From contig JAHJPG010000065.1 of NCBI GenBank assembly GCA_018819925.1, positions 1 to 47,844 of the forward strand: a DNA stretch of 47,844 nucleotides, read 5' to 3'. Source of the stretch: Pseudomonadota bacterium (GTDB taxonomy: Bacteria > Desulfobacterota > Desulfarculia > Desulfarculales > Desulfarculaceae). A program made the position numbers and the translations under genes. Shown here piece by piece: positions 18,402 through 34,746 of the stretch (within the stretch, counting starts at the first letter, position 1; each line of letters begins with the position of its first letter). Under the pieces are notes generated by a model that was not told where the DNA came from, ran no database searches, and saw only the letters and a program-made list of their open reading frames with translations.

Positions 18402-18499
18402 GGAAGTGGAAAGCTCACTGGTGGGGCTCCCGGACTTCAAATCCGGTGTACCGTCTGAGTAAGGCGGTAGGTGGGTTCGATTCCCATGCACTTCCGCCA
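18402..18499 (+). tRNA. selC: tRNA-Sec (anticodon TCA), CCA encoded
   Basis: 98 bases, long for a tRNA. The acceptor stem is GGAAGTG paired with CACTTCC, followed by G and an encoded CCA. The anticodon arm CCGGA-CTTCAAA-TCCGG carries TCA at 18437-18439, which reads UGA. A long variable arm (TACCG ... CGGTA, 18447-18468) and the T arm with TTCGATT follow. These are the hallmarks of selenocysteine tRNA, so the organism should make selenoproteins; selA, selB and selD are not in the window. Its 3' 66-69 bases are repeated twice downstream and mark a chromosomal integration site. Confidence 0.95.
18434..18499 (+). repeat. Attachment repeat, copy 1 (inside intact tRNA-Sec)
   Basis: The 66-base 3' segment of tRNA-Sec, from the anticodon arm to the CCA, is repeated without mismatch at 26624-26689 and 34560-34625. 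With copy 2 the identity extends to 69 bases (from 18431). This is the usual footprint of tyrosine-recombinase integration into a tRNA 3' end, where the incoming element restores the gene. Confidence 0.93.
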
Positions 18500-18509
18500 A
18501 AGTAAAATC

Positions 18510-18540
18510 AAGGGGTTGGCCGATTTGGCCGGCCCCTTGC
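18510..18540 (+). terminator. Terminator after tRNA-Sec
   Basis: A 12-base-pair stem (AAGGGGTTGGCC / GGCCGGCCCCTT with G-T pairs) and five-base loop is followed by TGCTATATTTTTA. Closely related hairpins follow attachment copies 2 and 3. Confidence 0.8.
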
Positions 18541-18579
18541 TATATTTTTAAGGCATCACTAAGCAAGATTTGTCTGGCA

Positions 18580-19196: not shown

Positions 19197-20660
19197 TCAT
19201 ACTTCCGCTTGTTCCACATGAATTTTTTTTACCATGAGTTTGATTAGCTGTATAACCGATTCACAGTCTGAAAGCGCACGGTGTTTGTTACCCACGTCTA
19301 CAGATAGTAGCTTGCATAGGGTTTGGAGCTTGTGATTAGGTAGCTCAGGCCATGTGTACCGGAACAAGGTGAGCGTGTCAAAAAAGCGAATATTATTATT
19401 GATGCCAATGTTACTATATGCACAGTCCAAAAAAGACTTATCAAAAGAAGCATTGTGGCAAAATACTGGTAACCCACTAACGAATTTATTAAAATCATAA
19501 ATTGCACTTGATATATTCACCCCTCTTTTATGCAGCATCGAATCATTTATTCCTGTCAGGCGGACGATTTTTTCAGGTATTTTGTGATCGTAAACAACAA
19601 GTGCTGTAAACTTCTCATAATTACTAAAATTTTCAGTCACTTTAATCGCCGCCAACTCAATAATCGCGTCGTCATTCGGATTTAACCCTGTAGTCTCTAA
19701 ATCGGCCACTACAAAATTATCTTTAAACATTTCTATGTAATCTTTAATTTCGACATGATTTTTAGCTCTAACCCATTCGGTTTTCCTCGCTTGATCTTTT
19801 TCCATTTCGCATTGATATTCTAAAGAATATCCAAGGTACTGTCGCAAGTAATTTTTCAAGTCTTCTTGAATGCTGGAAGGTTGGGTGCCAAGTTTGCTCC
19901 TTAGTTCATTGTTTTTTTCGAAGTGTTCCCAGCAATGGCGAGATATGGTCTCGTTAATTATTTCAGAAAAAATATCAGAGACAGCTCTATGGTTTTTTGG
20001 AGTTCCCATAGATTCTGCCAGCCACTTTTTGTCTGTTTTGTTTAGTAGGGTGAGCGTTTCGTAGCCAATTTTTTCATAACTAATGACGGCATTTTCCAAA
20101 TCTTTCTTCGATATATTTTTTACTATGTTTGCGCCTCCCACACCTTTCATTTTGGGGAAAACACACTCTTTGAGCAAATCGTTTAAAATTGCAACTCTAT
20201 ATAAAAAATCTAATTCACGGCGATAGCCCTTCTTCTCTTTCCTCTTTGCCCTTATAATCTTCCTAACAGCAATAGCAATACTGTTAAGATTGTTCGGGCC
20301 TAGTATTAATTGTTTTCTTAAAAGATCATTATCAAAATCTGTTTTTGGCAGTATCGGTTCCATCCATTTTGGCAACTTTTTCGCGTTTTTATTAATTTTT
20401 TTAAGGGGATCAAGCCAAATGTCATTGCCATCGTTTATTTCTGGCCTGTGTTCAGTTATAAATTTCCATTTGTCATATTCTTTGTCGAGCAAATCTTCTG
20501 GAACAGGCGGGGAGCTTCGTCCGGGATATGATATTTCTATTTTTAATCTCTGTTCGTTAACGTCCGTTTTTTTGTAGCCATTTAATGTTTTTATGTAGCC
20601 AGTTACTGTTTTATCTTGTGAACTATTAATGCCTAGCAACCTCAGTAGCTTACCAAACAT
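19197..20660 (-). CDS. DEDDh 3'-5' exonuclease (DnaQ-like) with unknown N-terminal half
   Basis: 487 residues. The C-terminal ~175 residues are a DEDDh exonuclease: Asp320 and Glu322 (VADLETTGLNP), Asp407 in CHNASFD, His460 and Asp465 in KHRALSD. All five catalytic positions are present, so digestion of single-stranded DNA or RNA from the 3' end is expected. The first ~310 residues are charged, Lys-rich and mostly helical; no known domain is recognised. The gene is very AT-rich compared with the chromosome. Possible roles are island replication or repair, or defence against other elements; the context does not decide. Confidence 0.8.
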   Translation of the reverse strand: MFGKLLRLLGINSSQDKTVTGYIKTLNGYKKTDVNEQRLKIEISYPGRSSPPVPEDLLDKEYDKWKFITEHRPEINDGNDIWLDPLKKINKNAKKLPKWMEPILPKTDFDNDLLRKQLILGPNNLNSIAIAVRKIIRAKRKEKKGYRRELDFLYRVAILNDLLKECVFPKMKGVGGANIVKNISKKDLENAVISYEKIGYETLTLLNKTDKKWLAESMGTPKNHRAVSDIFSEIINETISRHCWEHFEKNNELRSKLGTQPSSIQEDLKNYLRQYLGYSLEYQCEMEKDQARKTEWVRAKNHVEIKDYIEMFKDNFVVADLETTGLNPNDDAIIELAAIKVTENFSNYEKFTALVVYDHKIPEKIVRLTGINDSMLHKRGVNISSAIYDFNKFVSGLPVFCHNASFDKSFLDCAYSNIGINNNIRFFDTLTLFRYTWPELPNHKLQTLCKLLSVDVGNKHRALSDCESVIQLIKLMVKKIHVEQAEV

Positions 20661-21404: not shown

Positions 21405-21640
21405 GCCCAGATTATGCGGCAGTCGCCGCATTCCCTTTGGTTTTGAGCCTGTTGGTGCTCTCAATGCACCTAGTTCCTTTGCCGGGCGGCCTACCATGGC
21501 TCCATGGCCTGTCTGCCGAAACGATTTTGCACTGAAAACCCAACAAAAATTGCAATTCCCTTTTTCCCCTGGTCAATCAATTTTCACCAGTCACCCTGTA
21601 CCAAGCACCTCCCGGTAATGATTGGCCAAGGGAAACGATG
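21405..21640. repeat. Duplicated upstream module, copy A
   Basis: Within this gene-free stretch (21298-21766) about 235 bases resemble 22198-22460. Shared blocks include AGCCCA-rat-ATGCGGCAGT at the left and TGGTCAATC, CACCCTGTACCA and CCCGGTAATGAT-GGCCAAGG at the right. The rest has drifted. It sits upstream of one minus-strand secreted gene, as copy B does for the other. No gene was found in it. Confidence 0.7.
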
Positions 21641-22197: not shown

Positions 22198-22460
22198 CAG
22201 CCCAAATCATGCGGCAGTAACCACTTTTGGCCTCGTTTCTAGCCATTTGGTGCTCTCTGCGCGCTCTGTCATGCGGTGGTTGGGTTGCACCCACAGGCTT
22301 TCGCTGTCTACCGATCAAAACGCTCTCTCCTTGAAACCACAATGAAAACCGCAATGCCCTTGACCTTGAGCATATTAGCCCATTTCTTTTTTTATGGTCA
22401 ATCGACTTTCACTGGTCACCCTGTACCAGATACTGCCCGGTAATGATAGGCCAAGGGGAG
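22198..22460. repeat. Duplicated upstream module, copy B
   Basis: Diverged copy of 21405-21640 (see the shared blocks ATGCGGCAGT, ATGGTCAATC, CACCCTGTACCA and CCCGGTAATGAT). It lies in a ~730-base stretch (22097-22825) with no convincing gene; the right part of that stretch holds the iteron array. Confidence 0.7.
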
Positions 22461-22680
22461 ACTCAGGTCAGGAGGGTGAAAAGCACCCCCAAAAACATAA
22501 AAAACTGCATGTAAAAGTTGGCCCAGCGGTCTCTGCATGAAGGCGTTGAAGATATACCCGCCCCCCCTGGCAGGCAAGGACCAGGAGATGGTTTGGCGGT
22601 GCCGGGGCACTGACGTTGTGTTGGCCTTGGCTATCATCAGAAGGGCAAAGAAAGAAGCCCAAGCCTGGCAGAATCTAAGA

Positions 22681-22816
22681 GTAGGGTGCAAATGACCCCT
22701 TGCGGGACCGCATAATTTGACCACACAAGGGTTCTTTTGGCCCCTTGGGCCGGCCCAGTATATGCCTTGACAAGGGTGGTTATTGCCCCCTGGCAAGGGT
22801 GGAAATTGCCCCTTGC
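22681..22816. repeat. Four 23-bp iterons, candidate replication origin of island 1
   Basis: Four related 23-base units start at 22681, 22726, 22771 and 22794; steps are 45, 45 and 23 bases, close to whole numbers of two helical turns. The best-conserved parts are AAGGGT on the left and CCCCTTG on the right; the last two copies abut. They lie directly beyond the 3' end of the winged-helix gene. Directly repeated, phased sites beside a DNA-binding gene are typical of iteron origins; an operator array is the alternative. Confidence 0.6.
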
Positions 22817-22825
22817 TATCTAATT

Positions 22826-23188
22826 TTATCTTGGCCACATGGGAGGCGGCTTCCAATACCGCCATTGGTCACTAAGACCATACTCTGTGCAGTGCTGCAT
22901 CAACCCGCCCGGCTGATTGATGGTTATGAAGCCATGATCCACTAGCATTCGTATAGCCCTGGTGAAAGTCTTTCGCCCCATGAGTTTCTCGGCTTGGGAG
23001 TATGGTAGCTTTAGTTCCGTGCGATTATACCCCTTATCATCTTTCCTTATGTGTAGGTACGCAACACGCGCGGCGCAGGTAATCGACTCCCAGGCCTGGG
23101 ATTCAAGGATTGCGTCCTCAATACCAGTAAAGGGGCCATGAAAACGGTGCGGTTTTGTTGAACGCCTTCGGGGTCCATCCATTCCCAT
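22826..23188 (-). CDS. Winged-helix DNA-binding protein (candidate replication initiator)
   Basis: 120 residues. The centre reads as a winged helix: SITCAARVAYLHIRKDD..., LPYSQAEKLMGRKTFTRAIRMLVDHGFITI. This helix-turn-helix plus wing resembles domains of small-plasmid and satellite replication initiators and of some regulators. The tail (QWRYWKPPPMWPR) is basic and aromatic. It starts 12 bases after the AlpA-like gene, probably the same transcript. The iteron array begins just past its 3' end. At 120 residues it is short for a Rep protein, so it may act with host DnaA, or be a regulator; confidence in the fold is moderate and in the role low. Confidence 0.65.
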   Translation of the reverse strand: MGMDGPRRRSTKPHRFHGPFTGIEDAILESQAWESITCAARVAYLHIRKDDKGYNRTELKLPYSQAEKLMGRKTFTRAIRMLVDHGFITINQPGGLMQHCTEYGLSDQWRYWKPPPMWPR

Positions 23189-23200
23189 GGGGCGGTAGCC

Positions 23201-23446
23201 CTAGTTGCCTGCTTTGCGGCCGGATTCCACCACAAGCCTTTTAGCAAGCCAGCTTAATAGCGACTCCCTGGAATAACCTACGATTTTCCCCAGACGCACC
23301 CGCTGAGCCGGACCTTGGCCCAGCGAATCAAGATTCGCCATCGTGCGCGGGCTTAAGCCCGTTAGTTCGCGGAATCGGGGGTTGGTGCGATAGAGCACGG
23401 GAGGCAGACTGGAGGCCAATTCATCCATCAATTCGTTGCGCGCCAT
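23201..23446 (-). CDS. AlpA/excisionase-like helix-turn-helix protein
   Basis: 81 residues. The core PRFRELTGLSPRTMANLDSLGQGPAQRVRLGKIVGYSRESLLSWLAKR is an AlpA/MerR-type winged helix-turn-helix, the kind used as excisionase or integrase activator in P4-like satellites. It lies between the replication-type gene and the 275-residue gene on the minus strand. Start ATG at 23446 follows an AAAAGGATGA ribosome site that is complementary to an upstream sequence (see 23450-23500), so its translation may be switched. It is the best candidate recombination directionality factor for the island integrase. Confidence 0.8.
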   Translation of the reverse strand: MARNELMDELASSLPPVLYRTNPRFRELTGLSPRTMANLDSLGQGPAQRVRLGKIVGYSRESLLSWLAKRLVVESGRKAGN

Positions 23447-23536: not shown

Positions 23537-24364
23537 TTATTTTTGCAGAATTCTTCGAATATGTTGTGGGGTGTAGTTATATATTTTACCTAGAATACCA
23601 GCTAGCTCCCGAGGTGATTTGCCTTGCTGCAATAGCTTGTTAGCATGATCCCGTATAGACTCATGCCATTGGTTGGTTAATGCTTGCCTGGTCTTGCTGC
23701 CTTTGGAGCCCCCCTTGGATTGCCCTCTGCGCCATTTGTAGCCAACCAGTAATTCAGACCCCAACCCGTATCTACAGGCATTCAAAAGCATTGTGGCTGC
23801 CCAATAGGGCGCATTATGCATGTCGTCTGTTTTCAGACAAACGAGTAATTTTTGGGCTGCCTTGATCGTTTCAGCCGCTGCTTTATAGCGAAAACCGATT
23901 TTAGCCTGATATTGGAGTTTACCGTTTTCATTTTTGCGAGCTTCAAGGGGAATTTCTAGCCTGAGTAAGTCATACGGTGTATCAGGAAAGTCTTGTTCTC
24001 TAAGCCACACACCCAATATTTCCTTCCGCTTGTCTTCAATTCCAAGTTCTATAGCTTCGGCGGCATAACGGCTGATTTCATTGGCCCTTTTTGTGGCTTC
24101 CCCTTCGAGCATATTTAGGTCTTCAGGTAACGGGCTAATTTTGAGGAAATTCTTTGCGTCTTCTTCTAATGACTTTGCAAGCCTGGCAAGGTCCTGGCAT
24201 TGATCGGCATCAGGGTAGGAGTAAAACAAATCGGTGACAGCACCGACCTTGGGTCTGCGAGCCTTCATCAGCTCGCCAAGGTCAACAACACCTCCGCCTT
24301 TAACTTTAACATATATACGTTTCCTTCTAGCCATCCCCCACGTTCCAATATGCGTTATGGGCAT
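23537..24364 (-). CDS. Hypothetical protein with C-terminal helix-turn-helix
   Basis: 275 residues, or 265 if ATG at 24334 is used. It is soluble, helical and charged. The last ~50 residues (LLQQGKSPRELAGILGKIYNYTPQHIRRILQK) look like a helix-turn-helix of the type found in resolvase or replication proteins. An internal Lys/Gly/Ser-rich loop (RRGQSKGGSKGSKTRQA) precedes it. No enzymatic motif recognised. Start at 24364 is coupled to the stop of the antitoxin gene 4 bases upstream. GC is lower than the chromosome. Confidence 0.65.
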   Translation of the reverse strand: MPITHIGTWGMARRKRIYVKVKGGGVVDLGELMKARRPKVGAVTDLFYSYPDADQCQDLARLAKSLEEDAKNFLKISPLPEDLNMLEGEATKRANEISRYAAEAIELGIEDKRKEILGVWLREQDFPDTPYDLLRLEIPLEARKNENGKLQYQAKIGFRYKAAAETIKAAQKLLVCLKTDDMHNAPYWAATMLLNACRYGLGSELLVGYKWRRGQSKGGSKGSKTRQALTNQWHESIRDHANKLLQQGKSPRELAGILGKIYNYTPQHIRRILQK

Positions 24365-24368
24365 TCAC

Positions 24369-24731
24369 TCAAATCGAAATAAACCGCCTCGGGTCAACCT
24401 TAAGCGCCTCCCCCAACTTTTTGGCGTTCTGCTTGCCGATGGGGCGCTTGTGGTGTTCCATCTCGGAGATATGCCGGCGGGGGATGCCCGTGGCCTGGGC
24501 CAATTGGGCCTGGGTCATACCCTCCCGGTAGCGGGCACCGGCCAGAAAGACGCCGGGAAGCTCCCGGTCGTCATAGTCCAGGACTTGCCGCCAGGGCTTG
24601 CTGGGTTCCTGGGCGGAAAATCCCAGCTTGTCCATGGCGGCCACCACTTCGGCCACCTTGGCGGCCGGGCCGGAAAAGGTCAGCACGGCGGTGCTCTTGT
24701 CAGTACGGTGCTTTTTCGTGGCTGCCAACAT
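24369..24731 (-). CDS. HigA-like antitoxin (XRE helix-turn-helix)
   Basis: 120 residues. The C-terminal ~55 residues are an XRE helix-turn-helix (MTQAQLAQATGIPRRHISEMEHHKRPIGKQNAKKLGEAL). The N-terminal half (STAVLTFSGPAAKVAEVVAAMDKLGF) should wrap the toxin. It overlaps the toxin gene by 32 bases; GAGGTG lies five bases before the ATG. Order toxin-then-antitoxin is that of higBA systems. It probably represses the shared promoter together with the toxin. Family name rests on layout and motif, not on alignment. Confidence 0.8.
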   Translation of the reverse strand: MLAATKKHRTDKSTAVLTFSGPAAKVAEVVAAMDKLGFSAQEPSKPWRQVLDYDDRELPGVFLAGARYREGMTQAQLAQATGIPRRHISEMEHHKRPIGKQNAKKLGEALKVDPRRFISI

Positions 24732-24978
24732 AGGTCACCTCGATCAGTCTGATTTCGCCGGCCATCTCCTCCCACACGGCTATGTAGGTGGGCTGGCCTT
24801 TCTTAATGTGGCAATGGTGGCGACGGGGGCCAAGCTTGCCGTAGTTGGGCCAGTCGCCTCGCACCGGCCCGCTGTCCTCCATGTCCGCCATCAGTAGCGC
24901 CAGGGCCTTGCGCACCGCGCTGGGCAGTTTACCTATGCGCTTGCTGACCTTGTAGGTTATCTCGACTTGCCACGCCAT
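24700..24978 (-). CDS. RelE/HigB-like toxin
   Basis: 92 residues: EITYKVSKRIGKLPSAVRKALALLMADMEDSGPVRGDWPNYGKLG...HHCHIKKGQPTYIAVWEEMAGEIRLIEVTYVGSHEKAPY. The helix-helix-sheet order, the conserved 'Y-KL' turn, the basic strand (HHCHIKKG) and the final 'I-V-YVGSHEKAPY' are typical of the RelE/HigB superfamily of ribosome-dependent mRNA endonucleases. Basic residues and His near the active site are present. It is the first gene of the toxin-antitoxin pair and follows the operator at 24996-25014. Likely role: keep the island in the population. Confidence 0.82.
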   Translation of the reverse strand: MAWQVEITYKVSKRIGKLPSAVRKALALLMADMEDSGPVRGDWPNYGKLGPRRHHCHIKKGQPTYIAVWEEMAGEIRLIEVTYVGSHEKAPY

Positions 24979-25037: not shown

Positions 25038-25238
25038 TTATGGTGCCTTTTGGTCCCGAAACTCTATATGGGCTTCTCTCGCGGTACCGAGCATCTCCGG
25101 CACCAGGGCCTTGACCACCTTGGTCAGTTCTTCCCTGGTGGCGGCTTGGGCACACAACCCCGGCACGTCCCGGCTGGTGGCTATCCACACGGCCGCCTCC
25201 TGGTCCCAAATTACGTCAATCAAATATGCCTCAGTCAT
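25038..25238 (-). CDS. HicB-like / DUF1902-type protein without a HicA partner
   Basis: 66 residues: YLIDVIWDQEAAVWIATSRDVPGLCAQAATREELTKVVKALVPEML is the compact HicB fold (partial RNase H fold) with the characteristic 'D-e-a-vW-a-S-D-pGL--a--t-eel'. No DNA-binding tail and no adjacent hicA gene are present. It overlaps the 3' end of the integrase gene by 8 bases and is therefore read from the integrase transcript. It may be an orphan antitoxin or a domain used for another partner. Confidence 0.7.
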   Translation of the reverse strand: MTEAYLIDVIWDQEAAVWIATSRDVPGLCAQAATREELTKVVKALVPEMLGTAREAHIEFRDQKAP

Positions 25239-26620: not shown

Positions 26621-26689
26621 CGGACTTCAAATCCGGTGTACCGTCTGAGTAAGGCGGTAGGTGGGTTCGATTCCCATGCACTTCCGCCA
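26621..26689 (+). repeat. Attachment repeat, copy 2 (junction of islands 1 and 2)
   Basis: 69 bases identical to the 3' part of tRNA-Sec (18431-18499). The upstream half of the tRNA is absent, so no second functional tRNA is encoded. It is followed by a hairpin like the one behind tRNA-Sec. Confidence 0.93.
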
Positions 26690-26699
26690 CAATGATTTC

Positions 26700-26728
26700 A
26701 AGGGGTTAGCCAATTTGGCTGGCCCCTT
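26700..26728 (+). terminator. tRNA-Sec-type terminator after attachment copy 2
   Basis: AAGGGGTTAGCC / GGCTGGCCCCTT with a five-base loop, followed by TCATTTT. Same position relative to the repeat as the terminator behind tRNA-Sec, and identical in stem and loop to the one after copy 3 (34636-34664). Confidence 0.7.
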
Positions 26729-27288
26729 TCATTTTAGACGGATTCGTGATTTCGACCCCAGGGTGCGTATAGGGTGCGGATTGGTGCGCCTCAACCTGCG
26801 TATCATCCAATTTGTTGACCGCCTCTCGGTTTCCTCCAGGGGCAAGGTGGCCGTAGGTGTCAACCGTCAGCTTGATACTGTGGTGACCTAGCTGATCGCG
26901 AACATACGCCAAGGATTCCCCCTGTTGAATCAGAAGTGAAGCGTAGGTGTGCCTCAAGTCGTGTATGCGATGGCGAGACAAACCGGCAGACGCCAGAGAC
27001 TTGCGCCACACCCGGTTGTAAAAGGCGCCGCGTTCCATGGGGGTGCCCGTAGAGGACACAAACACCAGGGCTGGCGGATCACTCCACCCTTTGCCAATGC
27101 CTCCCGCTTTCGTGCGGTCCTGAGGGCTCTCACAGGACCCCTGCAAGCTGATTGCTCATGTCCACGCGCCGCCCCTTGCCGCTCTTGGGGGTTTCTACCC
27201 TGCCCCGGCTCAAGCCGCGCTGTACGTCGATAAACCTGCCCTCAAAGTCGATGTCCCCCCACTCAAGGGCCAGGGTCTCCTCCAAGGC
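26706..27288 (-). pseudogene. Degraded tyrosine recombinase of island 2
   Basis: Only the catalytic domain is left. From 27288 the frame reads LALEWGDIDFEGRFIDVQRG, then stops at 27130; the rest continues in another frame (VFVSSTGTPMERGAFYNRVWRKSL...HDLRHTYASLL...LGHHSIKLTVDTYGHLAPGG), so there is a frameshift near 27130-27146. His/Arg, the second His and the Tyr are recognisable, but the segment with the first catalytic Arg is lost and the N-terminal half is missing. It is therefore inactive. The remnant lies just inside attachment copy 2, the position expected of the island's own integrase. Confidence 0.85.
26760..26779. promoter_or_regulatory. Left arm-site doublet of island 2 (candidate)
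   Basis: Two AGGGTGCG half-sites 11 bases apart (26760, 26771). The 20-base block matches 34456-34475 with one mismatch. It lies 70 bases inside attachment copy 2, within the 3' part of the integrase remnant. A weaker third half-site (TTGGTGCG) follows at 26781. Confidence 0.6.
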
Positions 27289-27351
27289 TCCACCTCCAAG
27301 GAAGCGAACCTGGAAATCTCTCATCCCACTTGGACCCGAAACGGGTAGCAC

Positions 27352-27751
27352 CTCAGCAGGTCAACGCCAAAAATTGAACTGCGCCCGGCAAACCCGGGGA
27401 TTCCCGTGCGACTCATCGACGAGTTGGCCGACACGGTGGCCCAACCATAAGGTGGTTACCCTTCACTACTTTACTAATATTTAATATCAAACAATTTGTT
27501 AATACTGGCTCTCGTAGAATTAAATGCGGCCAAGCCATGTAATCGCTTGAAATATATGCTATATGTTCTAAGCAGTTGTAAAAATTCGACTGGTTTTTTC
27601 CATTGAGGGCATACAAAGAGACAAACCAAATAGTAATGCTTCACGCCGTTAGCTATTGGTTTAATTGAATTTAAGCCGGTATCATACTTTTCGCTTGACT
27701 TTGCTGACAGTAAAGTAGTTAGGTATTAATTAACTGGTTGGAGTCGCGTCT
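27352..27751. other. Gene-free AT-rich stretch before the cargo regulator
   Basis: About 400 bases without a convincing gene. The first ~100 bases are GC-rich, and a short frame ending at 27449 (VRLIDELADTVAQP) may be a relic of the 3' end of some coding sequence. The rest is AT-rich. An AGTTA-N9-TAACT inverted repeat (27717-27735) lies just upstream of the regulator start and could be its own operator. Confidence 0.5.
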
Positions 27752-28300
27752 ATGGATATCGGAGACCGCCTAAAAAAATTCAGGACCGCCAAGGGCCTGA
27801 CTATGAAAAAGCTGGCCGAGGCGGCCGGCGTATCTGAGCCCTACATCAGCCAGCTGGAAAAGGGCTCGGCCAATCCCTCCCTGGGAACCCTAAAAAAAAT
27901 CGCCGAGGCCTTGGACCAAAACATCGTCGCCTTCTTCTCGGTGGAAGACGGTGAGCAGGATGTGGTCTGTCCCCTAGAGGAAAGACGCGAAATCGTCTAT
28001 CCTGGCGGCCATATTCGGGCCCAGTTGATGGTGTCAAAGCTCAACGGCAAGACAATCGAGCCCCTGTACACCATTATCGAACCCGGGGGCGACACCCTTG
28101 ATCCCTACATCCATACAGAAGGCGGCGAGGAGTTCGGCGTGCTGATCAAAGGCCAACTCCTGCTCACGATTGATGGCGTGGAGCACCACCTTAAAAAGGG
28201 TGATGCCTTTTATTTCCGATCGGACCGGCCCCATCGTTGGGCCAACCCCGGCAAGGACACAACTGAGATAGTGTGGGTTATAACCCCGCCGACCTTCTAG
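27752..28300 (+). CDS. XRE-family regulator with C-terminal cupin domain
   Basis: 182 residues. An XRE helix-turn-helix occupies about 1-60 (IGDRLKKFRTAKGLTMKKLAEAAGVSEPYISQLEKG). A cupin fold covers about 95-180 (PGGDTLDPYIHTEGGEEFGVLIKGQL...KKGDAFYFRSDRPHRWANPG). Such regulators sense a small molecule or metal in the cupin barrel and control neighbouring catabolic or transport genes. It is divergent from the integrase remnant and directly precedes the transporter operon on the same strand, so it is the likely local regulator. Its ligand may be a nitrile, amide or carboxylate (inference). The 28350-28365 inverted repeat is a candidate binding site. Confidence 0.88.
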   Translation: MDIGDRLKKFRTAKGLTMKKLAEAAGVSEPYISQLEKGSANPSLGTLKKIAEALDQNIVAFFSVEDGEQDVVCPLEERREIVYPGGHIRAQLMVSKLNGKTIEPLYTIIEPGGDTLDPYIHTEGGEEFGVLIKGQLLLTIDGVEHHLKKGDAFYFRSDRPHRWANPGKDTTEIVWVITPPTF

Positions 28301-28349
28301 CCTTCACCTTGCCTTACTGAGCCGGCTGCACCAGGCTGGCGGTGACTAG

Positions 28350-28365
28350 ACGCTATAATTAGCGT
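28350..28365 (+). promoter_or_regulatory. Promoter -10 element inside a 6-4-6 inverted repeat upstream of the transporter operon
   Basis: ACGCTA-TAAT-TAGCGT is an inverted repeat with six-base arms. It contains a perfect TATAAT at 28354-28359. No good -35 element lies 16-18 bases upstream. The site is ~115 bases before the substrate-binding protein gene. Binding of the cupin regulator here would block or reshape initiation. Confidence 0.5.
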
Positions 28366-28478
28366 AACGTGCCGTTTTGCCTGTTTTAAATAAAAGTTAA
28401 TCCAGCAATCGGCGAGGGTGCCCGCGCGCATCCATAGGGGGAGTGCGCGCTTTTCGCCAAGAAAGGGAGCAGAGGAAA

Positions 28479-29738
28479 ATGGCATTAAAAAAGACCTGGA
28501 CCATGCTCTTGGCCCTAGCCTTGTGCCTGGCCTTGGCCTGTCCGGCTGCCGCGGGGGATGCATTAAAAATCGGCGTGATGTACCCCATGAGCGGCCCGCT
28601 GGCCTACACCGGCCAACAATGTTTGAGGGGAGCCGAGATCGCCCGCGACATGATCAACGAAGCGGGCGGAGTAAAAGGCAAGAAGATTCAATTCCTGGTG
28701 GGCGATTCGGTGTCGCCCAAGGACGCCATGGCCGAGGCCGAGCGCCTGATCACCATCGAAAAGGTGCCGGTGATTTCCGGCGGCTACTCCAGCTCCAACG
28801 CCTTTGCCGCCTCGGATGTTTGCGAGCGTCACAAGACCGTGTTCTGGATCACCACCGGCGTGGGCGACCCCATCACCTCGCGTGGCTACAAATACATATT
28901 CCAGCTCAACACCAGGGCCAGCCAGTGGGGCAGCACCACCGCCGACTTCCTGGCCAAGATGGCCGCGCCCAAACTGGGCATAAAGCCGGCCGACTTCAAG
29001 CTGGCCCTGATTCACGAAGACTCCCTGTTCGGCACCATAATCGGCGACAGCTGCGTGGCCCGGGCCAAGGAGCTGGGTCTCAAGGTGGTCGAGCGCATCA
29101 CCTACAGCCACAAGACGGTGGACTTATCCTCGGAGATCGCCAAGCTCAAGGCCGCCGGAGCCGACGGCATCGTATCCATCCACTACGTCAACGACGGCAA
29201 CCTGTTCTATGGGCAAGCCAAACAGATGCGCCTGAACGCCAAGGTGCTGGTGGGCAGCGTGTTCTTCGGGCTTAACCAGTTCCAGAAAAAATTCGGTTCC
29301 CTGGTGGACTACGTATGCGTGGTCGATCCGCCCACCCGGGTGGAGGCTTCCAAGATATCCAAGCCCGCCGCCGAGGTGCTCACCGAGTTCCGCAAGCGCT
29401 TCCAAGCCAAATACAAAGAAGAGCCCGGCGATCCTGGCTTCACTGCCTTTGGCGGCACCTACGTTCTGCTCAAAAACGTCCTACCCAAGGCCAAGGCCTT
29501 TGACGCCAAGTCAATTCAGGAAGCCGCCCTCTCTCTGGACCTCCCCAAGCTGGAGACTCCCTACGTGTTTGGGGTGAAGTTCGAGCAACCTCCGGCCAAG
29601 ACCGCCGGAGCCAACCTGAACGCCTTCCCGGTGATCATGCAATGGCAGAAGCAGCAACTGCTGGTGGTCTATCCGGAGAATTTGGCCAGCGCGCCGGTGG
29701 AACTGCCCATGCCCACCTGGAAGCAGCGCAAGAAATAG
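28479..29738 (+). CDS. ABC transporter substrate-binding protein, LivK/amide-urea type
   Basis: 419 residues. Signal peptide (KKTWTMLLALALCLALACPAAAG), cleaved near residue 26; no lipobox. The mature protein is a periplasmic binding protein type 1: KIGVMYPMSGPLAYTGQQCLRGAEIARDMINEAGG, VPVISGGYSSSNAFAASDV, HEDSLFGTIIGDSCVARAKELGLKVV. It is longer than typical LivJ/K (~370). It delivers a small ligand to the permeases encoded next. ATG at 28479 is preceded by AGAGGA. Members of this class bind branched-chain amino acids, amides, urea or aromatic acids; with a nitrilase downstream an amide, nitrile or carboxylate is plausible. Confidence 0.88.
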   Translation: MALKKTWTMLLALALCLALACPAAAGDALKIGVMYPMSGPLAYTGQQCLRGAEIARDMINEAGGVKGKKIQFLVGDSVSPKDAMAEAERLITIEKVPVISGGYSSSNAFAASDVCERHKTVFWITTGVGDPITSRGYKYIFQLNTRASQWGSTTADFLAKMAAPKLGIKPADFKLALIHEDSLFGTIIGDSCVARAKELGLKVVERITYSHKTVDLSSEIAKLKAAGADGIVSIHYVNDGNLFYGQAKQMRLNAKVLVGSVFFGLNQFQKKFGSLVDYVCVVDPPTRVEASKISKPAAEVLTEFRKRFQAKYKEEPGDPGFTAFGGTYVLLKNVLPKAKAFDAKSIQEAALSLDLPKLETPYVFGVKFEQPPAKTAGANLNAFPVIMQWQKQQLLVVYPENLASAPVELPMPTWKQRKK

Positions 29739-29750
29739 CTCTGTTGAAAA

Positions 29751-29777
29751 AAGCCGGGTCCCCGGGGGGCCCGGCTT
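29751..29777 (+). other. Intercistronic hairpin between binding-protein and permease genes
   Basis: AAGCCGGG (29751-29758) pairs perfectly with CCCGGCTT (29770-29777), with more G-C pairs inside. No T-run follows, so it is not a classical terminator. Hairpins in this position often stabilise the upstream message and raise the level of the binding protein relative to the permeases. Confidence 0.6.
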
Positions 29778-29789
29778 GCCAGGAGAGAT

Positions 29790-30668
29790 ATGTTCACACA
29801 GTTATTGCAACTCACCGCCAACGGCCTTTTGCTGGGCGCCATCTACGCCTTGAACGCCATGGGGCTCACCTTGATCTTCGGGGTGATGGAGATAATCAAC
29901 TTCGCCCATGGTGAGTTTTTAATGCTGGCCATGTACGGCGCGTTCTTCCTCAACGTTTGGATGGGCATGGGCCCCTACGTGGCCATTGTGGTAGTGGTGC
30001 CCCTGTTTTTCGTGCTGGGCGTGGCCTTCCAGAGGCTGATGATTCAGCCGCTTTTGGACTCCCAGGAAATCGCCCAGATATTCGCCACGGTGGGCCTTTC
30101 CATCGTGCTTTCCAACGGGGCCCTGTTCTTCTTCTCGGCGGACTACCAAATGGTGCGCACCGATTATTCCTTGGAGTCGCTGGATCTTTTCGGCGTCTAC
30201 CTGGGATACACCAGAATCTTCGCCTTTGCGGCGGTCTGTATGGTGGCCTTGGGGCTTTACCTTTTCATGAAAAGAACCTACATGGGCCGCGCCATCCGGG
30301 CCACGGCCCAGGACCGCCGGGCGGCGGCCCTGATGGGCGTCAACGTGCGCCGGGTTTACATGATCACCACCGGCTTGGGCCTGGCCTGCGTGGGCATCAC
30401 CGGGTCGGTGCTTTCGCCCATTTTCTCGGTATTCCCCTCGGTGGGCACCCAGTTCGGACTCATCGCCTTCGTGGTGGTGGTCTTGGGCGGAATGGGCAAT
30501 CTGGCCGGCGCATTTTTCGGCGGCCTGATCATCGGTCTGGTAGAGGCCTATTCCGGCTTCTTCCTTGATCCGGCGCTAAAGACGGTTGTGTATTTCGTGG
30601 TATTCATCCTCATCCTGCTGGTCAAACCCTCCGGGCTCTTTGGCAGCACCGTAAGGGAGAACGGATGA
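29790..30668 (+). CDS. ABC transporter permease, LivH-like
   Basis: 292 residues, about eight membrane helices. Typical LivH markers are LLGAIYALNAMGLTLIFGVMEIINFAHGEFLMLAMYGAFF at the N-terminus and the ATPase-coupling loop RAIRATAQDRRAAALMGVNVRRVY. AGGAGA precedes ATG by five bases. Its stop overlaps the next start (ATGA), so the two permeases are co-translated. It forms the heterodimeric channel with the LivM part of the next gene. Confidence 0.9.
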   Translation: MFTQLLQLTANGLLLGAIYALNAMGLTLIFGVMEIINFAHGEFLMLAMYGAFFLNVWMGMGPYVAIVVVVPLFFVLGVAFQRLMIQPLLDSQEIAQIFATVGLSIVLSNGALFFFSADYQMVRTDYSLESLDLFGVYLGYTRIFAFAAVCMVALGLYLFMKRTYMGRAIRATAQDRRAAALMGVNVRRVYMITTGLGLACVGITGSVLSPIFSVFPSVGTQFGLIAFVVVVLGGMGNLAGAFFGGLIIGLVEAYSGFFLDPALKTVVYFVVFILILLVKPSGLFGSTVRENG

Positions 30669-32416
30669 TGCAGGCGCTCGGCGTGAAAGGTTTAAGCGGG
30701 ATAGGTTTGTTGGTGGCGCTCAGCCCCTTTTGGGTGGGCAACCCCTTTTACACCGACATAATCGTAACCATCCTGTACTACGCAGCCTTGAGCTTGGCCT
30801 GGAACTTGGTGGGCGGCTACGCCGGCCAATTTTCCCTGGGCCATACCTCCTTTTTCGGGGTGGGCGCCTACACTTCCACCCTGCTTTTCCTGAACCTGGA
30901 CATATCGCCTTGGTTCGGCATGCTGGCCGGTGGGGTGTTAGCCGCCATCATGGCCTTGTTGATCTTCACACCCTGCTTTCGCCTTAAGGGCTTTTACTTC
31001 TGTCTGGTCTCCATCGCCCTGGCCGAGGTGCTGCGCATCATCGCCGTGTACTGGCGCGGGCTAACCATGGGAGGGGTCGGGCTACTGCTGCCGGTGAAAC
31101 CCGCCTGGCAGAACTTTTTATTCGAAAGCAAATACCCCTACCTCATCTTCGCCTTGCTGCTGCTGCTCATAATGATCGGAGTCACCTACTGGCTGGGCCG
31201 CTCCAAGCTGGGCTATTACCTCCAGGCCATACGGGAGGACGAATCCGCCGCCAAGGCGGTGGGCATCAACGTGGTGCGCTGCAAGACGATCATCATGATG
31301 ATCAGCGCCTTTTTCACCGCCGTAAGCGGCACCTTCTACGCCCAGTACATGATGTTCATAGACCCGGACATCGTGTTTTCCATGCACATGTCCATACAGG
31401 TGGCCCTGTTTGCCATCATCGGCGGAGTGGGCACTCTAGCGGGGCCGGTTTTGGGCGCTTTCTTGTTGGTCCCCCTGGACGCGGTGATGAAGGGCTGGCT
31501 GGGCACCATCTACGCCGGCCTGGGTTTCGTGGTATACGGAGCCATCCTCATCGCCGTGGTCATGCTCATGCCCGATGGCATCGTCAAAAGCGCAGAAGCC
31601 TGGATGGGACGGCGCCGGCCCAAGGAGATTAAAGAGGTCGAGTACCTGGAGGACGCCGTCATCCCACCACCGGCCCTGGAGCCGCCGCCGGGGGAAATCC
31701 TGCACGTCAAGGGGTTGTGCAAATCCTTCGGAGGGCTCAACGCCATTTATGAACTAGACCTGAGCGTGCGCCGGGGAGAGATCGTGGGGGTTATCGGTCC
31801 CAACGGAGCCGGCAAAACCACCTTGTTCTCCCTGATATCCACTTTTCTCAAACCAGACCGAGGCAGCGTTTCCTTTTGCGGCCAAGACCTGGGCCAGATG
31901 GCTCCCCACAGCGTGTGCGCCATGGGCCTTTCGCGCACCTTCCAGGTGGTTCGCCCTTTCATGCACCTCAGCGTGCTGGACAACGTAGCCACCGCCTGCC
32001 TTTTGCGCGATCCCCATGTGCCCCGGGCCCGGGAGCGCGCCCTGGAGGTTTTGCGTTTCGTGGGTCTGGGGGATCAGGCCCACAAGCCGGCCTCCAGCCT
32101 CACCCTGCCCAACCGCAAACGGGTCGAATTGGCCCGGGCTTTGGCCACGCGGCCCTCGCTGATTCTGCTGGACGAGGTGATGGCCGGGCTCAATCCCAGC
32201 GAGATCAGACAGATCATCGAGTTGGTGCGACGCATATCGGCAACTGGAATCACCCTGGTGGTGATCGAGCACGTCATGAAAGCCATCATGTCCCTAAGCG
32301 ACCGCATCGTGGTGATCAACTACGGGCAAAAGATCGCCGAGGGCACGCCGCAGGAAATCGTAGCCAACCCCTTGGTCATCGAAGCCTATCTGGGCAAGGA
32401 GACGGCCCATGCTTGA
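30665..32416 (+). CDS. Fused ABC permease-ATPase, LivM-LivG type
   Basis: 583 residues. Residues ~1-310 are a LivM permease with about nine helices; GGYAGQFSLGHTSFFGVGAY and the coupling loop QAIREDESAAKAVGINVVR (188-206) are diagnostic. A ~30-residue Pro-rich linker (about 320-345) leads to a LivG ATPase with Walker A GPNGAGKTT (378-386), Walker B LILLDE with Glu504, and switch His536. The usual signature LSGGQ is replaced by LTLPNRKR, which LivG-type proteins often vary. The genetic fusion keeps the permease and its ATPase in one chain; the second ATPase is encoded downstream. No frameshift or internal stop, so it is a real fusion. Confidence 0.92.
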   Translation: MMQALGVKGLSGIGLLVALSPFWVGNPFYTDIIVTILYYAALSLAWNLVGGYAGQFSLGHTSFFGVGAYTSTLLFLNLDISPWFGMLAGGVLAAIMALLIFTPCFRLKGFYFCLVSIALAEVLRIIAVYWRGLTMGGVGLLLPVKPAWQNFLFESKYPYLIFALLLLLIMIGVTYWLGRSKLGYYLQAIREDESAAKAVGINVVRCKTIIMMISAFFTAVSGTFYAQYMMFIDPDIVFSMHMSIQVALFAIIGGVGTLAGPVLGAFLLVPLDAVMKGWLGTIYAGLGFVVYGAILIAVVMLMPDGIVKSAEAWMGRRRPKEIKEVEYLEDAVIPPPALEPPPGEILHVKGLCKSFGGLNAIYELDLSVRRGEIVGVIGPNGAGKTTLFSLISTFLKPDRGSVSFCGQDLGQMAPHSVCAMGLSRTFQVVRPFMHLSVLDNVATACLLRDPHVPRARERALEVLRFVGLGDQAHKPASSLTLPNRKRVELARALATRPSLILLDEVMAGLNPSEIRQIIELVRRISATGITLVVIEHVMKAIMSLSDRIVVINYGQKIAEGTPQEIVANPLVIEAYLGKETAHA

Positions 32417-33113
32417 GGTGAGTTCTCTAGAGGTTTGTTATGGCGACCTGGTGGCCTTGTCCGGGCTGAATCTTCACGTGGAACAAGGCCGCATCGTGGC
32501 GCTCCTGGGCTCCAACGGTGTGGGCAAAACCACTCTGATCAACACCATCTGCGGGTTGTTCAAACCCACCAAGGGCAGCATCGTCTACCAGGGCACTCAC
32601 CTGGAACGCGAACCCGCCCATCGGGTGGTGGAACTGGGAGTGGTGCAGGTGCCCGAGGGCCGCAAGCTGTTCCCCCAAATGACCGTGTTGGAAAACCTGC
32701 AGATGGGGGCATATCCTCCCAGGGCCAGAGAACTGGCCGAGGAAAGCCTGGATTTCGTCTTTGGCCTGTTGCCCCGCCTCAAGGAGCGCACCAACCAGAT
32801 CGCGGGCACCCTTTCGGGCGGGGAACAGCAGATGGTGGCCCTGGGAAGGGGGCTCATGGCCAGGCCCCGGCTGTTGATCCTGGACGAGCCCTCCTTGGGA
32901 TTAGCGCCGCTGGTGGTGCAAACCATCTTTGAGACCGTAAGACAGGTCAAGGAAACCGGCATCACGGTGCTGTTGGTCGAACAGAACGTGCGCCAGGTGC
33001 TGTCGTTTTGCGACCGCGCCTTTGTGCTTGAAAACGGTTGCATAACCCTGGGAGGCCAAGGGCTGGAACTGCTTGATAATCCTCATGTTCGCGAAGCATA
33101 TCTAGGAATGTGA
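32409..33113 (+). CDS. ABC transporter ATPase, LivF-like
   Basis: 234 residues. Walker A GSNGVGKTT (34-42), signature LSGGEQQM, Walker B LLILDEPSLGLAP and switch H-loop region VLLVEQNVRQ; the His is replaced by Gln, as is usual in LivF. It overlaps the fused gene by 8 bases. Together the two ATPase domains (LivG part and this one) should make an asymmetric pair powering uptake. Start and length agree with LivF (~235). Confidence 0.92.
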   Translation: MLEVSSLEVCYGDLVALSGLNLHVEQGRIVALLGSNGVGKTTLINTICGLFKPTKGSIVYQGTHLEREPAHRVVELGVVQVPEGRKLFPQMTVLENLQMGAYPPRARELAEESLDFVFGLLPRLKERTNQIAGTLSGGEQQMVALGRGLMARPRLLILDEPSLGLAPLVVQTIFETVRQVKETGITVLLVEQNVRQVLSFCDRAFVLENGCITLGGQGLELLDNPHVREAYLGM

Positions 33114-33136
33114 ATCACAGCCGGAGATGAAAGCAA

Positions 33137-34150
33137 TTGCCTAAACAGACATACAAAGTGGCTGCCATGATCGCCGCCTCCAGCCACAAAAGCAAAGACG
33201 AAACCATGGACAAGGTGCTGGCCATGACCCGGGAGGCGGCAGCAAGGGGAGCCCAACTGGTGGTCTTCCCCGAGACCTTCGTCCCCTACTACCCCTGGTG
33301 GATATGGATGGCGGTAAACAACACCCAGCGCCTGAACCTCTACCGCCAGCTCTATCACAACTCCATCGAAGTGCCGGGCCCGGAAATCCAACGGTTGGCC
33401 GAAGAGGCGGCGCGTCTTAAGATTCACGTAACCTTGGGGATCAACGAACGCGATGGCGGGACCATCTACAATTCACAAGTTTTGATCGACGATCAGGGCC
33501 GGCTGGTGGGCAAGCGGCGCAAACTCATGCCCACCGGCGAAGAAAAAACCATCTGGGGCTGGGGCCACGGCAACGACTTGGTGGTCTACGATACCAGCCT
33601 GGGCAAAATCGGCCCCCTGATCTGTTATGAGCACTCCATGGCCCTTAGCCGCTTCGCGCTATACGCCATGGGCGAACAGGTGCATGTGGCCAATTGGCCG
33701 GGAGCCAACTTCAAAAGCCAGCCGCGCAACCGCTCGCGCATCATTGACGCCGCCATGCGCCACACCGCCTTTGAGGGCCAGGTCTTTGTCATCTTCTCCT
33801 CGTCCATGCTCACCGAGGAAGACGTGGCCTATTACCATGAGTTGGACCCTTCCACCGAGGAAAGTCTGGAGCCGGGCGGCGGCATCGCCGGCATCATAGA
33901 CCCCCTGGGCAATTACGTGGCCGGGCCGGTGGAGCACGAAGAAACCATGCTGGTGGCGGAAATCAATCTCGAGCTTATAACCTACGCCAAACACATGGTG
34001 GACTCGGTGGGTCATTACAACCGCCCCGATGTGTTTTCCTTGCGGGTGGACCGCCGTCCCCGTCCAGCCATGACCTCACGGGAAGACATCCAGGATCCAG
34101 TTGGGCAAAAACCGGTGGAGATGGTCACCGAGATGCCAGAGACGATTTAA
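33137..34150 (+). CDS. Nitrilase (carbon-nitrogen hydrolase family)
   Basis: 337 residues. The catalytic triad is complete: Glu46 (VFPETFVPYYPWW), Lys129 (RKLMPTGEEKTIWGWG) and Cys163 (LICYEHSMALSR). The RKLMPT-x-EEKTIWGWG pattern and the length are those of true nitrilases (EC 3.5.5.-), which convert a nitrile to acid and ammonia, rather than amidases. TTG at 33137 is chosen because the family's first strand (YKVAAMIAASSH) starts there and GGAG lies about 10 bases upstream; there is no in-frame ATG before it. No signal peptide: cytoplasmic. Last gene of the cargo operon, 23 bases after livF. Substrate range (aliphatic, aryl, arylacetonitrile) cannot be read. Confidence 0.9.
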   Translation: MPKQTYKVAAMIAASSHKSKDETMDKVLAMTREAAARGAQLVVFPETFVPYYPWWIWMAVNNTQRLNLYRQLYHNSIEVPGPEIQRLAEEAARLKIHVTLGINERDGGTIYNSQVLIDDQGRLVGKRRKLMPTGEEKTIWGWGHGNDLVVYDTSLGKIGPLICYEHSMALSRFALYAMGEQVHVANWPGANFKSQPRNRSRIIDAAMRHTAFEGQVFVIFSSSMLTEEDVAYYHELDPSTEESLEPGGGIAGIIDPLGNYVAGPVEHEETMLVAEINLELITYAKHMVDSVGHYNRPDVFSLRVDRRPRPAMTSREDIQDPVGQKPVEMVTEMPETI

Positions 34151-34559
34151 CTTGAAGGCTATGCGGCAAAGAAATGCCCCACTGCCGACGAAAGACCGCC
34201 GGTGATGCCGCCCATGGGCAAAGGGTCATTATGCGCTCCATGCCCAGCTAGGACCCGGGCCGGTGAAAGCGCCATTCTTAAGAGAGGCGACACGGTTTGG
34301 TGAAATTCCAAAGATTTTATTACCGCGCCCATGCCCCATGTTATTGCGTGTTAGTAGAATCGGCTACGAGCTGCAACGGGTCTAGCCGGCATGGAAATAA
34401 CCTTGTAAATCCTATTCGGACTTTTCCACCAAAACACGAATACACTAGCAATGATAGGGTGCGCATAGGGTGCGGGCTGAGGTTGCTGGGTGCATGAATC
34501 TGCACCCATTTGCGACCCCAACTATGTTAACTTACTGGTATCTTTAGCCATATTGTATA
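34151..34559. other. Right end of island 2: gene-free, with arm-site doublet and inverted repeat
   Basis: No convincing gene. AGGGTGCG occurs at 34456 and 34467, an 11-base step; this 20-base block matches 26760-26779 with one mismatch. A perfect 8-base inverted repeat (TGGGTGCA / TGCACCCA, six-base loop, 34487-34508) follows. Both are 50-105 bases from attachment copy 3. No strong terminator was seen after the nitrilase gene. Confidence 0.6.
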
Positions 34560-34625
34560 ACTTCAAATCCGGTGTACCGTCTGAGTAAGGCGGTAGGTGG
34601 GTTCGATTCCCATGCACTTCCGCCA
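34560..34625 (+). repeat. Attachment repeat, copy 3 (right end of island 2)
   Basis: 66 bases identical to 18434-18499, i.e. the tRNA-Sec 3' end including CCA. The sequence upstream of it differs from the tRNA, so it is a partial copy left at the chromosome junction. Confidence 0.93.
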
Positions 34626-34635
34626 CAATAAAAAC

Positions 34636-34664
34636 AAGGGGTTAGCCAATTTGGCTGGCCCCTT
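34636..34664 (+). terminator. tRNA-Sec-type terminator after attachment copy 3
   Basis: Same stem and loop as the hairpin after copy 2 (AAGGGGTTAGCC / GGCTGGCCCCTT), followed by TCTCGTT. If island 2 entered first, this could be the original chromosomal terminator. Confidence 0.65.
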
Positions 34665-34746
34665 TCTCGTTGATCCCATATGCTGGCTTTGCCTGGTTTT
34701 CAATTCTGGACGTTAGGATAGACGTAGGATTTTCCCTACGGAGTGT

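Follow-up and report, generated by a model that had tools for sequence, protein, structure and literature searches.

Does a small winged-helix gene followed by four repeats form a complete replication module of a genomic island? The locus that raises this question lies in a stretch of 47,844 nucleotides from a member of the Desulfarculaceae; this whole stretch is the window referred to below. It belongs to an 8.2-kb island that is inserted in tRNA-Sec and bounded by 108-bp repeats containing the tRNA-Sec 3' end (Table 1). A reading of the sequence alone (the sequence-only reading) had proposed that the excised island replicates from these repeats. Our analysis leans towards the answer that the excised island replicates from the four boxes, with the 120-aa protein as its initiator.

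Four semi-palindromic boxes lie immediately 3' of the winged-helix gene

The array in the window consists of four semi-palindromic 22-bp boxes on the plus strand, with zero to three mismatches each to the consensus CAAGGGTNNNNNTNGCCCCTTG. Successive box starts are 45, 45 and 23 bp apart, an exact match to the steps given by the sequence-only reading. The winged-helix gene is on the minus strand and its ORF stops about 11 bases short of the first box, which places the array immediately beyond the 3' end of the gene. This bears out the earlier placement of the repeats just beyond the gene, the span 22681-23188 taking in both boxes and ORF. Each box is in addition an inverted repeat (CAAGGG..CCCTTG), symmetric at 12 to 14 of 22 positions, a property that had gone unmentioned. 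Only the phasing to two helical turns proved loose, as a helical repeat of 10.5 bp gives 2.2 turns for 23 bp and 4.3 for 45 bp. Overall, the earlier observation was confirmed on much stronger evidence than first stated.

Over the whole 47.8-kb window, 1.3 matches of the CAAGGGTNNNNNTNGCCCCTTG type are expected, and four were observed within 135 bp. Even when up to eight mismatches of 22 were allowed, the island contained only these four copies. The best repeat pair agreed at 16 of 18 positions in the real sequence, compared with at most 15 of 18 across 60 dinucleotide shuffles. No DnaA box was found near the array.

Table 1. Features of the island and its box array in the window
Feature	Position	Strand	Remark
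tRNA-Sec gene, intact, integration site	18402..18499	+	
Left attachment repeat (tRNA-Sec 3' part and downstream bases)	18434..18541	+	
Candidate AT-rich element	22667..22680	-	weak match only, about TACTCTTAGATTCT
Box 4, most distant from the gene	22681..22702	+	GTAGGGTGCAAATGACCCCTTG
Box 3	22726..22747	+	CAAGGGTTCTTTTGGCCCCTTG
Box 2	22771..22792	+	CAAGGGTGGTTATTGCCCCCTG
Box 1, closest to the gene	22794..22815	+	CAAGGGTGGAAATTGCCCCTTG
120-aa winged-helix protein, proposed single-domain initiator	22826..23188	-	ORF, predicted fold and homologues
81-aa AlpA/excisionase-like HTH protein	23201..23446	-	directly upstream of the winged-helix gene
275-aa protein	23537..24364	-	between the AlpA-like gene and the integrase
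Tyrosine integrase, 423 aa	25231..26502	-	PF00589, E 2e-30
Right attachment repeat	26621..26728	+	93% identity to the left repeat

Protein and array occur together across the family

Homologues of the 120-aa protein number more than 30 and are found chiefly in Desulfobacterota. A whole-genome search revealed a copy with 49% identity elsewhere in the same genome (G000:C76), and other genomes contain relatives too. Of 395 genomes searched within the phylum, 20 encoded the protein according to a profile built from five members. A profile from another branch added members in Desulfosarcina, Desulfofustis, Desulfobulbaceae, one Omnitrophota genome and others. Conventional collections of mobile elements yielded next to nothing: tblastn searches with the members tried gave zero matches among 72,556 plasmids and 50,697 phages, and the family is nearly absent from IMG/VR, with a single match. 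Pattern-based scans of collections with window-like proteins gave no match, and among the collection scans only alignment A3, from another branch, produced any.

We counted 18-mer box copies with up to four mismatches on either strand, within a stretch that begins 170 bp ahead of the stop codon and ends 250 bp beyond it, using the same procedure for 33 oriented homologues and for 198 control windows from the same loci. At least three copies of a locus-specific box were present at the 3' end of the gene in 28 of the 33 homologues, which are not 33 independent cases because some loci are closely related (for example L022/L031/L042, L013/L015 and L026/L032), versus 2 of the 198 control windows. 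Homologues without neighbouring repeats had been named beforehand as a finding that would refute a replicon. The proposal passed this check, as these 28 carry the array at the same place, with three or four copies each and usually four. Protein and box array are thus nearly always found together across the relatives.

Box number and spacing stay constant while the box sequence changes. The sequence varies widely between elements (AGTATCGAAATCGATACT, GAGTGTCAAAAATAACAC, TACGTAAACGTACCC, GGTATAAAATTAGCACC, CAAGGGTGGAAATTGCCCCTTG, and TGTCAAAAATAACA in L034), and the recurring steps are about 23, 34, 44 and 92 bp. Nearly all steps (67 of 72) fall within four classes of 20-26, 31-37, 42-47 and 88-96 bp. 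Counted from the gene, the most frequent layouts begin with a step of 24 or 34, followed by one of 44-45 and one of 92-93. The corresponding steps are 23, 45 and 45 in the window and 24, 44 and 45 in its same-genome relative. The array of many members overlaps the 3' coding region of the gene itself: where the protein has a longer C-terminal tail the first boxes are within the coding sequence, and the window ORF ends before its boxes.

Among hand-picked boxes, the central four nucleotides are 94% A/T, compared with 55% in the arms. The array has about 13 times the density of AGT..ACT-type dyads found elsewhere, and only this type separates array from control DNA; neither the strength of the best dyad alone nor an unrestricted dyad count did so. 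Within each element the boxes are restricted to the array, the exception being AT-rich L072 with its short, uninformative motif. DnaA boxes occur near 3 of 33 arrays, too few for any argument to be built on them.

The predicted fold resembles RepA_N DNA-binding domains

AlphaFold2 predicts a winged helix for the window protein (mean pLDDT 83). The top solved structures were the N-domains of RepA_N proteins (4pql, 4pt7, 5kbj and 4pta; Z 9.9 to 8.6), while all other structures reached Z 7.1 at most. A separate model of a second member (mean pLDDT 88) again placed these four N-domains first (Z 8.5 to 7.5), with a small lead over unrelated winged helices. All Foldseek E-values against solved structures were above 0.01. 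The models suggest that the protein is the equivalent of the DNA-binding N-domain of RepA_N.

The family had no match above cut-off in Pfam-A or NCBIfam, in keeping with the earlier suggestion that such an initiator family may be undescribed. The best E-value to Pfam RepA_N (PF06970) among 18 members was 0.014, from one member only, and a PF06970 scan of ten genomes returned nothing over cut-off, winged-helix genes included. The C-terminal domain of RepA_N proteins, for primase or host interaction, is absent: the 120-aa protein stops with the winged helix, and relatives have only a short C-terminal tail. Because PF06970 did not match and the C-terminal domain is missing, we do not file the protein as RepA_N. 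No helicase- or primase-recruiting domain was found in the 120-aa protein. PHROG matches were mostly to DnaD-like loaders, O-like and replication-initiation families and were all weak; phrog_186 was matched by 9 of 18 members (best E 1.6e-5) and phrog_678 by 5 of 18, none strongly.

Another structural neighbour, TubR (Z 6.5), brings up a partition or incompatibility locus, in which the protein would bind the boxes as a centromere, as TubR does with tubC. A repeat array next to a small winged-helix gene is compatible with such a locus. However, TubR ranked well under RepA_N, no ParA-, ParM- or TubZ-like partner was present among the scanned island proteins, and integrated islands rarely need partition. 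We regard a centromere role as very improbable.

An AT-rich element and the genes beyond the array

In most loci an AT-rich element with the consensus ATTCTATAGATACC lies within a few bp past the last box (for example L036, L035, L019 and L037). A leave-one-out test separated it from control stretches in most loci, the window excepted, where the match had a score of 0.4, a value that 32% of control stretches from the same locus attained. The element might serve for duplex opening or as a -10 box.

The weak element in the window, together with the missing DnaA box and attachment repeats that are merely 93% identical, would fit a former origin whose copy in the window has decayed. Against decay, the winged-helix and integrase ORFs are intact, the four boxes are well kept, and the same genome contains an intact relative with the near-identical spacing 45, 44, 24. 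A decayed copy is in our judgement improbable.

A -10 box would point instead to a transcription regulator with its operator, in which dimers on the four boxes would activate or repress the promoter of the next island genes and the AT-rich element would serve as the -10 of that promoter. Its -10-like sequence and its position in most loci agree with this, as do the co-directional genes that begin 30-260 bp past the array in many homologues, where a promoter would need them, and the structures of MarR, CodY and PadR, which are close in fold to the protein. The operator explanation is nevertheless weakened by three findings. There is no close co-directional gene in L072, where the genes past the array face the opposite way as far as the integrase, or in the window, which has no convincing co-directional gene start for about 570 bp. 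Other promoters of the elements carry no boxes, and in many members the array is partly intragenic. In addition, the window has no sigma-70-like promoter directly past the array, L006 shows no evident co-directional gene, and the genes downstream of the array are unrelated from element to element. We consider an operator, the main rival reading, rather unlikely.

The module resides in small tRNA-integrated islands

Of 34 loci, 26 encode an integrase close to the winged-helix gene, and many have an AlpA-like gene. Repeats derived from tRNA genes flank nine elements of 6-10 kb, the window's included; the other eight are complete, with 6.0-10.1 kb between repeats of 29-59 bp from tRNA 3' ends. 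One more complete element of 9.2 kb contains a weak homologue. In the window, the AlpA-like protein was recognised by a locally built AlpA-like profile (E 1.2e-6) and had no match in Pfam, HTH_17 included. The neighbouring 275-aa protein showed at most marginal similarity (E 0.012) to the protein that L034 encodes at the corresponding place. An Rfam scan of the island found nothing besides tRNA-Sec.

The Desulfosarcina widdelii element (L034/L039) has an integrase, the winged-helix gene and array, then TerS and an HK97-type capsid gene, a combination known from capsid-forming satellites, and L069 is an 8.6-kb tRNA-Leu element with TerS and TerL. Judged by these genes, both elements appear satellite-like. 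The cargo of other elements comprises a restriction-modification-like set, identified by eye (L071), a resolvase (L068) and an SF2 helicase (L070). The scanned proteins of the window island and its complete relatives included no primase, Pri-Rep or replicative helicase, and the winged-helix gene sits where PICMIs and PICIs have their primase or Rep gene. We found no description of such elements in Desulfobacterota in the open-access literature.

Since the module is almost always in integrase elements and often adjoins an AlpA-like gene, protein and boxes might form an accessory excision site that takes part in recombination at att. Yet the array is kilobases away from att, in the window as in complete elements, and in PICMIs the excisionase role is already held by AlpA-like proteins (PMC10803314). 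We regard a function in excision as very improbable.

A proposed single-domain initiator with its own origin

Four boxes beside an initiator gene are known from other systems. The lambda origin has four dyad-symmetric iterons that are bound by the winged-helix N-domain of the O protein. Dyad boxes and a winged helix recur here, and the O-like PHROG matches are weak; the protein differs from O in having no domain that binds a helicase loader, and its boxes come after the gene or within its 3' end. SGI1 has an HTH_17 gene (S004), rep, and an oriV with four iterons directly downstream of rep; deletion of the iteron region stops its replication and leaves excision unaffected (PMC7433901). The likeness to SGI1 is one of arrangement alone, namely an HTH gene, a putative initiator gene and four boxes directly downstream in a site-specific island. 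SGI1 iterons are 17-bp GC-rich direct repeats accompanied by a DnaA box, whereas the window boxes are semi-palindromic and have none nearby.

RepA_N systems (pSK41, pTZ2162 and the PLE RepA) are similar in the predicted N-domain fold and in semi-palindromic, A/T-centred boxes. The 120-residue N-domain of pSK41 binds four Rep boxes, central in the rep gene and 3' of its own codons (PMC5703833); here, too, four boxes are directly 3' of the N-domain codons. The PLE of Vibrio cholerae demonstrates a RepA_N initiator working in a satellite, and typical RepA_N iterons are semi-palindromic repeats converging on an A tract (PMC7145576); the boxes here likewise converge on A/T. According to the same paper, the mechanism by which RepA_N initiators begin replication is unknown, and few Gram-negative bacteria have them (PMC7145576). 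In contrast to them, the protein described here has neither the C-terminal domain nor a PF06970 match, and we found no description of the 23/34/44/92-bp spacing in the literature consulted.

PICIs, cf-PICIs and PICMIs are likewise small att-bounded islands with an integrase, an AlpA-like gene and an origin 3' of the initiator gene (PMC6092414, PMC10803314), as in Gram-negative PICIs, where the origin is 3' of rep (PMC6092414). Some relatives of our island share TerS, TerL or capsid genes with such satellites, a likeness of gene content alone. The difference is that the winged-helix gene stands where PICIs and PICMIs have a primase or Pri-Rep gene.

The fold, the semi-palindromic A/T-centred boxes, their 3' position and the layouts of SGI1, PICIs and pSK41 are the reasons why we favour an initiator-origin pair. 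They support in part the earlier proposal of replication through an unusually small initiator. Points against an origin are that the protein has no domain to recruit helicase or primase, that winged helices of this size also serve as ordinary regulators, that plasmids and phages gave no matches to the members tried, that DnaA boxes are few, that Foldseek E-values exceed 0.01 and that co-directional genes follow many arrays.

As an initiator, the protein would bind every A/T-centred semi-palindromic box, by analogy with RepA_N as a dimer. The four boxes with their fixed spacing would then assemble a nucleoprotein complex adjoining the AT-rich element, which would open and take in helicase and primase supplied by the host or by a helper phage or plasmid. 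Our results cover the boxes with their number, spacing and linkage to the protein family, the predicted fold and the island setting; binding, dimerisation, opening, replisome recruitment and a rise in copy number after excision are inferred. The module most likely serves as a compact starting point for replication in a little-known set of hitch-hiking islands. These are best read as a satellite or mobilizable type whose iteron replicon has a single-domain initiator and four boxes in a strict layout. More tentatively, we propose that the proteins are an undescribed family of single-domain initiators with their own fixed-spacing four-box origins, and that they mark unrecognised 6-10-kb tRNA-integrated satellite or mobilizable islands of Desulfobacterota and a few other phyla. 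If the family keeps the DNA-binding part alone, together with a strict layout of four boxes, it would offer a minimal system for testing what origin recognition by itself achieves. The signature of gene plus array gives a handle on islands that escape phage and plasmid collections, and the co-variation of protein and box sequences offers a natural specificity library.

Further features of the islands

The same-genome copy L006 was considered as a complete 3-kb mini-element and dropped, as its left end could not be fixed; its integrase side is marked only by a 48-bp tRNA-Thr fragment. A Cys-rich protein with a C..C...EV..C....C.L...R.G-like pattern and no Pfam match is encoded beside the winged-helix gene in about ten elements (L006 6221-6709, L002 1990-2340, L068, L070-L073, L079 and L047).

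The cargo of the window island includes a 487-aa protein (19197-20660) in which an uncharacterised N-terminal part precedes an exonuclease domain of the RNase_T/DnaQ type at the C-terminus. A 63-bp stretch occurs twice, at 21570-21632 and 22395-22457, with 84% identity and 825 bp apart, and adjoins a small ORF with a secreted look. Between the proposed initiator gene and the integrase, a 92-aa ORF overlaps an HTH_3 gene, with a DUF1902 gene adjoining (24369-24978 and 25038-25238); these genes resemble one or more toxin-antitoxin-like pairs.

The tRNA-Sec attachment repeat occurs a third time, at 34560-34666, and there delimits a second island in tandem (26621-34666). This island contains integrase fragments (26706-27351), an HTH-cupin regulator, a nitrilase-like gene and an apparent branched-chain amino-acid ABC transporter operon.
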